A DNA stretch of 54,121 nucleotides from Acidimicrobiales bacterium (lineage in GTDB: Bacteria; Actinomycetota; Acidimicrobiia; Acidimicrobiales; GCA-2861595), in NCBI GenBank assembly GCA_035540975.1, contig DATLFN010000088.1:1-54121 (forward strand). Direction: 5' to 3'. Below, piece by piece: positions 2,080 through 28,816 of the stretch. The position numbers and the translations under genes were made by a program. Position 1 is the first letter of the stretch. The number at the start of each line of letters is the position of its first letter. The notes under the pieces are model-generated. The model was not told where the DNA came from, searched no databases, and worked only from the letters and a program-made list of their open reading frames with translations.

Positions 2080-2128
2080 GTTCTCTGGACGGAGGACACC
2101 GGATACCGGTGTCCTCCGTCCGGAGAAC
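2080..2128. repeat. 49-nt palindromic element, copy P1
   Basis: Two 23-nt arms (2080-2102 and 2106-2128) pair with one mismatch around a central ATA. The ends read GTTCTCTGGACG and CGTCCGGAGAAC. It lies 16 bp beyond the ptsI stop and 27 bp before the EamA start. There is no T-run, so it is not a classic intrinsic terminator. It belongs to the same 49-nt family as the elements at 15280, 15386, 26974 and 27931. Confidence 0.88.
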
Positions 2129-11883: not shown

Positions 11884-11915
11884 CCGGCGGTCCGCGTGTG
11901 GCCCCCGGGCAGCTG

Positions 11916-11964
11916 TTCAGTGCGCGCCGGCGCGCCAGGTGCTGGCGCGCCAGCGCGCACTGAA
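11916..11964. repeat. Near-perfect 49-nt palindrome between divergent promoters
   Basis: Arms 11916-11938 and 11942-11964 (23 nt each) are complementary at 22 of 23 positions around a GTG centre. The ends read TTCAGTGCGCGC and GCGCGCACTGAA, and each arm contains GGCGCGCC. It sits midway between the metH and lipoprotein -10 elements. It has the same 23-3-23 geometry as the ATA-centred family but lacks the ATA and GTTC/GAAC ends, so membership is unproven. An operator is the other obvious reading. Confidence 0.85.
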
Positions 11965-11993
11965 ATGTGGGGCGGGACCCCCGAGCGATGACC

Positions 11994-15254: not shown

Positions 15255-15279
15255 CCCGCCGCCCCACCCGCGCCGGCTC

Positions 15280-15328
15280 GTTCCGGCGGCACACCCGGGC
15301 GGATAACGCCCCTCCCTGCCGCCGGAAC
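15280..15328. repeat. 49-nt palindromic element, copy P4
   Basis: The ends GTTCCGGCGGCA and TGCCGCCGGAAC form a 12-bp stem. An inner GGGCG/CGCCC stem (15297-15301, 15307-15311) closes a loop containing ATA at 15303-15305, the exact centre. Length and centre equal those of P1-P3, but the outer-stem sequence differs. Confidence 0.85.
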
Positions 15329-15385
15329 CGCTGCTGACCATCCTCGGCGGCGACGGCTGACCCGCCGCGCCACCGGCGCCGGCGC

Positions 15386-15434
15386 GTCCCGGCGGCAGAT
15401 CCGGGCGCATAACGCCCCTTCCTGCCGCCGGAAC
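15386..15434. repeat. 49-nt palindromic element, copy P5
   Basis: This is the second copy within the tandem duplication. The ends read GTCCCGGCGGCA and TGCCGCCGGAAC (one mismatch), the inner stem is GGGCG/CGCCC, and ATA sits centrally at 15409-15411. It lies 40 bp from the ATP-grasp stop codon. Confidence 0.83.
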
Positions 15435-26237: not shown

Positions 26238-26942
26238 GTGCGCCGGTCGGCGGAGGTCGACTCGACCAACCGGGTCGCCCTCGACCTGGCCCGCTCCGGT
26301 GCGCCCGAGGGCGTGGTCGTGGCGGCCTGCTCGCAGACGGCCGGACGGGGCCGGCGGGGCCGGACGTGGGATGCGGCGCCGGGTTCGGCGCTGCTCGTGT
26401 CGGTCCTGCTCCGGCCGGCGTCGGGTGCCGCCCCGCTGCACCTGGCCGTGGCGGTGGTGTCGCTGGCCGCGGCCGACGCGTGCGAGGCGGTGGCCGGGTT
26501 CCGGCCCGGCCTCAAGTGGCCGAACGACCTGGTGGTGGGCGACCGCAAGCTGGCCGGAGTCCTGGCCGAGGTGGCGGGCGACGCCGTGGTGGTCGGAGTG
26601 GGCCTCAACGTGGCGTCGGCCGCGCCCTGGCCGCCGGGCGCGGTGGCGGCCGAGGAGGTCGCCGGCCGCTCGGTGGCGGTCGACCGGCTGCTGGACGCGT
26701 TCCTGGCGGCCCTGGGCGGGCGCTACCCGCCCGGGGACTGGGCGGCCGTCGCCTCCGAGTACCGGCGGGCGTGCACGACGATCGGCCGTGTGGTGCGGGT
26801 GGACCTGCCCGACGGGTCCTTCACCGGGGCCGCCGCCGACGTCTCCGACGACGGCCGTCTCCTCGTCGACGTCGGCACGTGCCGGCGCGCCGTCGAGGCC
26901 GGCGACGTCGTCCACCTCCGTCCCACCCCCGCGCCAGACTGA
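26238..26942 (+). CDS. birA: Biotin-[acyl-CoA carboxylase] ligase, monofunctional
   Basis: A 234-residue biotin protein ligase that attaches biotin to the carrier lysine through biotinyl-AMP. The VDSTNRVA entry motif, the adenylate loop GRGRRGRTW and KWPNDLVV are present, followed by the small C-terminal SH3-like domain. It lacks the N-terminal DNA-binding domain of E. coli BirA, so it is not a repressor. The GTG at 26238 is used; family proteins usually have a few more residues before it, and the upstream frame is blocked by a TAG 15 bp earlier. It is divergent from its likely substrate gene. Confidence 0.93.
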
Positions 26943-26973: not shown

Positions 26974-27022
26974 GTTCTCTGGACGGATCTCGCCGCATAC
27001 CGGCTGTCGACGTCCAGAGAAC
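26974..27022. repeat. 49-nt palindromic element, copy P2
   Basis: The ends GTTCTCTGGACG and CGTCCAGAGAAC pair over 12 bp. An inner GCCG/CGGC stem closes a loop with ATA at 26997-26999, the exact centre. It lies 31 bp after the birA stop and 17 bp before the nuclease start. Confidence 0.9.
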
Positions 27023-27039
27023 GGCGAAAGGGAGGACGG

Positions 27040-27957
27040 ATGGACGCCATGGAGGCGCTCGACCGGCTGGGAGCAGCCCAGCACGGGCTGGTCACCGGCG
27101 CCCAGGTGGACGGCGCCGGGTGGGCGGCGAGCGGGCGGCGGCGGCTGGTGGCCGCCGGCCGCCTGCTCGTCGTGCGGCCCGGGGTGTACCGGCTGGCCGG
27201 GGCGCCGGTGACCTGGGAGCAGGGCGTGCTGGCGGCGGTGCTCGCCGCCGGGCCGGGGGCCGTGGTGTCCCACCGGTCGGCGGCTCGGCTCTGGGGCCTG
27301 CTCGACGGCGACGTGCTCGAGCTCACGGTCCCCGCCCACCGCCGGCCCCGCCTCGGCGGTGCCGTCGTGCACCGTTCGGCGGACGTGGCGGGCGCACCGG
27401 TGGTCCGCCGGCGTGCCGTGCCGGTGACGTCGCCGCTGCGCATGCTCGTCGACCTCGGCGCGGTTCTCGATGCCGGTGCGGTCGAGGATGTCCTCGACCG
27501 CACCCTGGAGCGGCGCCTGGTCACCCTGGCCGGCGTCGAGCGGGCACTGGCGGAGCTGGCAGGCCGCGGGCGGGCCGGGGCCGGGGTGTTGCGCGCCGTC
27601 CTGGAGCACCGGGCCCTCGGTTCGGCGCGGCCGGAGAGCCTGCTCGAGCCCCGGATGGCGCGGCTCATCCGCGACGCCGGCCTCCCCTCGGCCGCCTTCC
27701 AGCACGAGGTCCGCCACGCCGGCCGTCTCGTCGCCCGGGTCGACTTCGCCTACCCCGACGTGCGCCTCGCCGTCGAGGTCGACGGCTGGGGCTCCCACTC
27801 GTCGCCGCGCGCCTTCCAATCGGACCTGGCCCGCCAGAACGCCCTCGTCGCCCTGGGCTGGACGGTGCTGCGGTTCACGTGGCCCGACGTCGTCCGCCGC
27901 CCGGCGATCGTCGGCACCGACATCCGCCGCGTTCTCCGGACGCTACGCACCGCATAG
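27040..27957 (+). CDS. AbiEi-type HTH plus DUF559 (PD-(D/E)XK-like) endonuclease-domain protein
   Basis: A 305-residue protein. Residues 1-55 form the AbiEi-antitoxin-like N-terminal domain ([32 protein letters not shown]). Residues about 60-130 continue as the AbiEi core ([14 protein letters not shown]), and residues about 205-300 match the DUF559/Vsr-like nuclease fold with [20 protein letters not shown] and [20 protein letters not shown]. Asp and Glu/Asp of VDFAYP and EVDG are the likely metal ligands. GGGAGG lies 4-9 nt before the ATG. A 49-nt palindrome lies on each side; the downstream one starts exactly at a codon boundary and encodes the last eight residues and the stop. No partner toxin (AbiEii) is present. 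Cellular role unknown. Confidence 0.85.
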
Positions 27958-27979
27958 CGGCGGTTTCGGTCCAGAGAAC
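27931..27979. repeat. 49-nt palindromic element, copy P3, overlapping the nuclease stop
   Basis: The ends GTTCTCCGGAC and GTCCAGAGAAC form an 11-bp stem with one mismatch. An inner CCGC/GCGG stem closes on a central ATA at 27954-27956. The T and A of that centre, with the next G, form the TAG stop of the nuclease gene. The element ends 16 bp before the 3' end of the convergent pabC gene. Confidence 0.9.
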
Positions 27980-27994
27980 GACGGGCCCGGGGGC

Positions 27995-28816
27995 TCAGGG
28001 GTCGAGGTCGGTCCCGACGATGGCGGTGAGGGCGGCGGCCGCGGCCGACGTGAGGGGACCGGGGCACGACGGCAGGGGGCGGCCGTCGACGGCGGAGATG
28101 GGCTGCACCTCGCGCGTGGTGGACGTGAGGAAGGCCTCGTCCGCCTCGGCCAGGGCCGATACGGGCACGTCCTCCTCGGCCGCCCCGCACGCCTCGATCA
28201 CGAGGGCGCGGGTGACGCCGGCCAGGCACCCGGCGGACAGCGGCGGCGTCACCAGCCGGCCGCCCACCCCGAGCACCACGTTCGACCCCGTCCCCTCGCA
28301 CAGGCTGCCGGCCAGGTTGGCGAAGATCGCCTCCGACGCCCCCCGCCGGCGGGCCCACTCGACGGCGACCACGTTCTCGCCGTACGACGTCGTCTTCAGG
28401 CCGGCGAGCGCCCCCCGCTCGTTGCGGGGCCACGGTACGACGGCGACCTGCACCGACGGCGGCCACGCCGGCAGTGCCCCGGGCACCACCAGCACCGTCG
28501 GCCCAGCCGAGCCGCGGGCCGACCCCATGGGCCCGGGCCCGCCGGTGAGCGTGATCCGCAGGGCGGCGTCGCCCAGGCCGTTGGCGGCGGCGACCGCGTC
28601 CAGCGCCTCCCGCAGCACCCCCGCCGGCGGCGCCACCAGCCCCATCCCCGCCGCCGACGCCGCCAGCCGCGCCAGGTGACGGCGGACGGCGAACGGGCGG
28701 CCCCCGTACGTCTTGAGCGTCTCGAACACGCCGTCGCCCACGGTGAGCCCGTGGTCGGACACCGAGACGCACGCCGAGCGGGCGTCGACCAGCGAGCCGT
28801 TCATCCAGACCTTCAC
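27995..28816 (-). CDS. pabC: Aminodeoxychorismate lyase (class IV PLP enzyme)
   Basis: A 273-residue fold-type IV PLP enzyme. With its coupled neighbour pabB it should convert aminodeoxychorismate to 4-aminobenzoate and pyruvate for folate. Visible motifs are SVSDHGLTVGDGVFETLK at the N-terminus, the PLP lysine in LAGLKTTSYGENV and the EGTGSNVV phosphate-binding loop. Branched-chain and D-amino acid aminotransferases share this fold, so context carries the assignment. It starts at the GTG at 28816, overlapping the pabB stop (GTGA); an ATG at 28804 is a shorter option. Confidence 0.88.
   Translation of the reverse strand: MKVWMNGSLVDARSACVSVSDHGLTVGDGVFETLKTYGGRPFAVRRHLARLAASAAGMGLVAPPAGVLREALDAVAAANGLGDAALRITLTGGPGPMGSARGSAGPTVLVVPGALPAWPPSVQVAVVPWPRNERGALAGLKTTSYGENVVAVEWARRRGASEAIFANLAGSLCEGTGSNVVLGVGGRLVTPPLSAGCLAGVTRALVIEACGAAEEDVPVSALAEADEAFLTSTTREVQPISAVDGRPLPSCPGPLTSAAAAALTAIVGTDLDP

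Follow-up and report, generated by a model that had tools for sequence, protein, structure and literature searches.

Paired palindromes around actinobacterial AbiEi–Vsr nuclease genes: a candidate enzyme-driven repeat system

What ties a chromosomal nuclease gene to the two palindromes between which it lies, and which of them moves, the gene or the repeats? In the window (the whole stretch of DNA analysed here, 54,121 nt from an Acidimicrobiales bacterium), the original prediction, made from the letters alone, set a nuclease gene between two 49-nt palindromes, pointed to lone copies elsewhere and proposed a mobile cassette whose enzyme is related to its own sites as in RAYT/REP systems. Both palindromes proved to lie exactly where it had placed them, and the sequence confirms that 17 bp separate the end of the upstream copy from the nuclease ATG and that the second copy provides the last eight codons and the TAG stop. 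The locus and the other palindromes of the window are laid out as follows.

2080..2128, + strand: lone type 1 palindrome, a near-perfect hairpin
15282..15326, + strand: type 2 palindrome, whose cognate nuclease gene is on contig C55 of the same genome
15388..15432, + strand: another type 2 palindrome, duplicating the 15282..15326 copy in tandem together with about 60 nt of flank
26238..26942, + strand: birA, for biotin-protein ligase, conserved on the left of the nuclease gene
26974..27022, + strand: upstream type 1 palindrome, 49 nt, with 11-bp arms GTTCTCYGGAC/GTCCRGAGAAC and core CCG-N5-CGG
27040..27957, + strand: nuclease gene, 305 aa, with an AbiEi-like DNA-binding region and a Vsr/DUF559 (EDxHD-like) nuclease domain
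27931..27979, + strand: downstream type 1 palindrome, 49 nt, overlapping the end of the nuclease gene
27995..28816, - strand: pabC-like aminotransferase class IV gene, conserved on the right of the nuclease gene

Palindrome families in the host genome

The predicted GTTCTCYGGAC ends hold, and the predicted CCGCATA core does not, since it is really CCG-N5-CGG with a variable centre. Lone copies also exist as claimed, at 2080-2128 in the window and further afield across the host genome. Specifically, the pattern GTTCTCYGGAC-N27-GTCCRGAGAAC has three matches in the window against none in 100 dinucleotide shuffles, and the 3.45-Mb host genome carries 10 exact type 1 copies, or 27 when up to three mismatches are allowed (reversed-pattern control, 0); all of 98 relatives from the same order lack the exact pattern. 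Position -1 is C and position +1 is G in nearly all copies, so that the type 1 unit is closer to 51 nt than to 49 nt, and because the copies are alike only in the palindrome and this C...G, with unrelated outer flanks, it is the palindrome itself that is repeated. Two further families are dispersed in the same genome: type 2 in about 45-54 copies (54 matches versus 9 in the control) and type 3 in 19 copies (versus 0). The genome encodes three paralogous nucleases, each lying between a different palindrome type that has its own dispersed family.

The two type 2 palindromes of the window belong to a tandem duplication of about 106 bp (15279-15434), and type 2 copies elsewhere in the host genome are often paired about 100 bp apart. 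At 11915-11965 the window also holds a 51-nt palindrome (GTTCAGTGCGCGCCGGCGCGCCAGGTG...) whose centre, GGCGCGCCAGGTGCTGGCGCGC, recurs in the palindrome upstream of a disrupted paralogue of the nuclease gene (L043, contig C74); this is possibly a fourth palindrome type.

Association of palindromes with the nuclease

The flanks of homologous genes were searched without the window's own palindrome sequence as input. In relatives of the order, paired palindromes with a common half-site enclose 26 of 68 genes, as against 0/68 for far-flank controls and 0/68 for shuffles; another sample, drawn from a separate genome collection, has such pairs at 31/68 genes versus 3/206 controls. Under a stricter score a matching pair is found at 60 of 134 homologous genes and at none of 271 control flank pairs; the enrichment in homologue flanks that the original prediction set as a check is present, and the association of nuclease and palindromes is general. 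The flanking palindromes have a median length of 49 nt (range mostly 38-63 nt). The upstream copy ends a median of 65 nt 5′ of the start codon, the start of the downstream copy precedes the stop codon's end by a median of 1.5 nt, and in 31 of 60 cases this copy overlaps the coding sequence, so the palindrome-supplied gene end seen in the window is typical. Of the homologues, about half have no stringent pair, some keeping the upstream palindrome only and others having none visible.

Palindrome type also follows the protein. A strong half-site is common to 72% of protein pairs above 60% identity and to about 0.1-1% of those below 40%, and in a Mantel test of half-site similarity against protein identity none of 500 permutations reached the observed correlation; half-sites differ between subfamilies, in line with the check proposed for the stem type. 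One pair of paralogues in a single genome (L062 and L076 in G008) is 70% identical and has palindromes that differ strongly, so that specificity may have changed recently here.

The presence of the enzyme and that of the repeats can be compared across 151 Micromonospora genomes. All 112 genomes with the cognate nuclease have palindromes (minimum 3, median 27.5), and the 39 in which it was not detected have a median of 2, with zero in 14 (Mann-Whitney p = 2e-14, a value that ignores shared ancestry). Palindromes equally common in genomes free of the nuclease would have told against the predicted association; in most such Micromonospora congeners they are rare or absent. Some genomes do carry 7-33 palindromes with no cognate nuclease detected, which fits enzyme loss and could also reflect assembly gaps or another enzyme.

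The protein itself joins two known families. Pfam places AbiEi_4 at residues 6-53 and DUF559, above its cut-off, at residues 205-299, with MTES_1575 slightly under its cut-off; the AbiEi-like part extends over about residues 1-195 and the Vsr/DUF559 nuclease over about 199-300. When 57 homologues were scanned singly, MTES_1575 was matched in 52, DUF559 in 46 and AbiEi_4 in 42, and none of the 57 has an HUH/Y1 tyrosine transposase domain, only AbiEi and Vsr/DUF559/MTES_1575 families being matched in Pfam. Residues E203, D235, E246, D248, H253, D262 and R265 are near-invariant across homologues (D235 and E246 at 98% each). An AlphaFold2 model (mean pLDDT 94.3) was compared with known structures by Foldseek: the N-terminal part matches the Streptococcus agalactiae AbiEi antitoxin (6y8q, TM 0.64 by target length), and the C-terminal domain matches the I-Bth0305I catalytic domain (3r3p, TM 0.75 by target length), 3hrl and Vsr; 3r3p and 3hrl are matched by sequence as well as by fold. 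The predicted fold is that of an AbiEi antitoxin joined to an I-Bth0305I-like homing-endonuclease domain.

Is the gene simply part of a type IV toxin-antitoxin or phage-defence system (AbiE), with the palindromes incidental? PADLOC labels the window protein AbiEi, and PADLOC and Pfam both assign its N-terminal part to that family, but no AbiEii toxin gene lies beside it, its neighbours being birA and the pabC-like aminotransferase gene, the antitoxin part carries a fused nuclease, and the association with palindromes is far above chance, all of which makes this reading the most improbable of those we considered. It is likely that many actinobacterial AbiEi-DUF559 fusions have been mis-filed as toxin-antitoxin or defence genes.

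Position of the gene and movement of the repeats

The nuclease gene keeps its place while the palindromes around it change. It lies between birA and pabC in the window genome and likewise in two relatives from the order, the surrounding palindromes differing each time (in one of the two relatives the upstream copy alone is seen), and in nine Micromonospora species it occupies one orthologous place upstream of purD (identified by eye from the reading frame), with palindromes of three subtypes. No full-length copy of the gene was found on plasmids or in phages, and a scan of viral contigs with one peptide pattern found no relative. The mobile cassette is the part of the original prediction that is not supported: at least three genomes keep the gene at birA-pabC, Micromonospora keeps it upstream of purD, and a mobile gene cassette was rejected on this positional conservation. 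A plasmid or phage origin is likewise rejected, neither source giving a full-length match.

An ordinary transposable element would combine a nuclease transposase with terminal repeats and leave solo ends of the MITE kind elsewhere, and a gene flanked by two repeats with solo repeats dispersed around the genome has that outline. The positional conservation and the lack of plasmid or phage copies speak against it, as do both ends being whole palindromes, not one inverted-repeat pair, and the combination of random centres with invariant arms, which is not MITE-like. Comparison of empty and occupied sites, in intergenic DNA too divergent to align well, showed no target-site duplication. We regard this explanation as very unlikely.

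The repeats themselves are variable in a particular way. Across 27 Micromonospora copies of subtype i, the outermost 20 nt of either side hardly vary, and the central 16 nt are information-poor, constant in length and, over most of that length, base-paired no more than by chance; the inner columns of type 1 likewise pair no more than expected. Type 3 has a nearly perfect 17-bp stem and a free 4-nt loop. A hairpin in RNA or DNA was rejected as the sole signal on the chance-level pairing in the inner columns of types i and 1, although type 3 is almost all stem. Between orthologous copies the centre changes and the arms stay. The repeat resembles a pair of inverted half-sites, kept a set distance apart and under continual selection or conversion, and a free centre fits half-site recognition on duplex DNA as well as it fits a hairpin loop. 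There are also chimeric palindromes, in which the arms of one subtype are joined to the core of another, suggesting in-place conversion of arms; at loci L339 and L340 (G145) and L332, L333, L337 and L338 (G222), arms of subtype i enclose a core of either subtype ii (GGCGTGTCG) or subtype iii (GATCTTC/GATCTCC). Other large palindromes (TGATTCACGGAAAG, CGATCTTGCACTTTC, CGATCTGGGACTTGTC, ATGATCGCGCTCGATCC) stand at orthologous Micromonospora intergenic sites (L312, L249, L251, L257, L258, L269) and perhaps belong to further nuclease subfamilies.

What moves is the palindrome. At orthologous intergenic sites the place of a solo copy is occupied, empty or filled by another palindrome type, depending on the species. 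In G107, two 57-nt copies differ by one base and lie in a common 65-nt block with unrelated outer flanks, which indicates a recent copying event. In G102, two palindromes (L329 and L330) are identical and have about 45 nt of one flank in common, on opposite sides and inverted; the spacer orientation of this pair is kept despite the inverted flank, as if the centre had flipped. Comparison of these loci shows palindromes being gained, lost and copied between genes while the nuclease gene keeps its chromosomal place. Among 55 intergenic solo copies, with gene orientation called by a codon-bias rule, 32 lie between convergent genes, 22 between tandem genes and 1 between divergent genes.

This distribution bears on the possibility that the AbiEi region acts as a transcription factor or nucleoid-type protein and the palindromes as operators or terminator-like sites, spread by chance and kept by selection for binding, with the nuclease acting elsewhere. 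AbiEi proteins bind inverted repeats and autoregulate, one palindrome lies 5′ of the gene (median 65 nt before the start), arms are conserved around free spacers, and solo copies lie near gene ends. Yet a second copy sits at the stop codon, solo copies avoid divergent promoters (1/55), copying of the repeat itself is evident from near-identical copies whose flanks are unrelated, and the catalytic residues are among the most conserved, so that we think binding alone an unlikely account, if the least unlikely of the alternatives.

A homing or gene-drive process is less probable again. Here the nuclease would make double-strand breaks at sites with no palindrome or one of the wrong type, repair would copy in the palindrome and at times the gene, and palindromes would mark resistant sites. 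The closeness of the catalytic domain to the homing endonuclease I-Bth0305I, the different palindrome types at one intergenic site in different species and the chimeric palindromes are all in keeping with this. However, the copies lie at unrelated sequences with no common target, the gene is flanked by two whole palindromes and does not split one, it is not itself spreading, and full-length copies were not found in plasmids or phages.

Proposed mechanism and relation to known systems

We favour, as the probable explanation, a chromosomal nuclease that recognises one dispersed palindrome type and drives the copying and/or upkeep of that repeat, the cutting and copying by the enzyme being inferred. 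A dimer would bind the inverted arms through its AbiEi winged-helix region, in the manner of AbiEi antitoxins, which bind inverted repeats in their own promoter (PMC11062541), and the two Vsr-like domains would nick or cut in or beside the palindrome, as duplex or in cruciform or hairpin form. Repair from another copy of the palindrome would then spread or restore the arms, and the upstream palindrome would probably double as an autoregulatory operator. A target of nearly 60 bp, on which I-Bth0305I reportedly forms a dimer (PMC3943268), is close in length to the 38-63 bp palindromes and fits their size. Cutting would have to be rare, structure-dependent or limited to a nick, because free cutting of 20-80 host sites would be toxic.

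The closest parallel is with RAYT (TnpA-REP)/REP/REPIN systems (REPtrons), in which a housekeeping-like chromosomal enzyme gene lies in a fixed place between cognate palindromes, and enzyme and repeat change together (PMC2817692, PMC8266576). The likeness includes a dedicated chromosomal enzyme gene flanked by two cognate palindromes (here 60/134 versus 0/271), dispersed extragenic copies including doublets, several types per genome in numbers linked to the presence of the enzyme, joint change of enzyme and repeat, and a gene that keeps its place. The predicted RAYT/REP-like tie between an enzyme and its own dispersed palindromes is in this respect supported, in homologue flanks, across protein subfamilies and in nuclease-free genomes; it is what survives of the original prediction once mobility is removed. 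RAYTs, in contrast, belong to the HUH tyrosine transposases and act on single-stranded REPs of 20-40 nt that carry a GTAG head. The enzyme here combines AbiEi with Vsr/DUF559 and lacks an HUH domain; most of its palindromes measure 38-63 nt, random centres are frequent among them, and the copies number about 10-80, below typical REPs. GTAG/GTGG heads are not enriched among the flanking palindromes (9/120, 7%, versus 12% background). Membership of REP/RAYT was ruled out by the missing GTAG head and HUH domain.

With the EDxHD homing endonuclease I-Bth0305I the nuclease has in common a related catalytic domain by sequence and fold, near-invariant E203, D235, H253 and D262 in motif order (matched to the motif name alone) and a dimer target, of about 60 bp (PMC3943268), near the palindrome length; it differs in being free-standing, not in an intron, intein or split target, in a gene that is not spreading, in its AbiEi DNA-binding part and in having a repeat family as its candidate target. 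Its N-terminal ~195 residues match AbiEi of the AbiE type IV toxin-antitoxin in sequence and fold, and AbiEi binds inverted repeats (PMC11062541), but the nuclease protein lacks an AbiEii partner, carries a fused nuclease domain and has dozens of target-like repeats genome-wide. The C-terminal domain belongs with the Vsr, DUF559 and MTES_1575 families by profile match and conserved D, E and D/H residues; these families are defined by protein sequence only, and we found no palindrome association described for them. Finally, CGTC-tagged REPs are also short palindromes dispersed in bacterial genomes, but are reported with no dedicated enzyme and have another end motif (PMC3733652). No earlier description of the nuclease-palindrome association was found in the literature searched, which covers few subscription journals or preprints, so its novelty is provisional.

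We think it reasonably probable, then, that the chromosomal AbiEi-Vsr nucleases widespread in actinobacteria form a second, independent enzyme-driven palindromic repeat system. Each would have a dispersed set of bipartite palindromes of fixed length, with fixed arms around a free centre, and these would be propagated and homogenised through nicking or cutting with templated repair, not through a tyrosine transposase. If so, REP-like partnerships of enzyme and repeat would have arisen at least twice with unrelated enzymes and would be a recurrent solution, not a peculiarity of RAYTs. Such a system would account for many orphan palindromes in actinobacteria, of which a Micromonospora genome has tens, and would assign a role to a large protein family at present labelled 'AbiEi antitoxin' or 'DUF559'. 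It would also offer natural nuclease/site pairs whose specificity changes at orthologous loci, with recognition and repeat spread testable in culturable strains.
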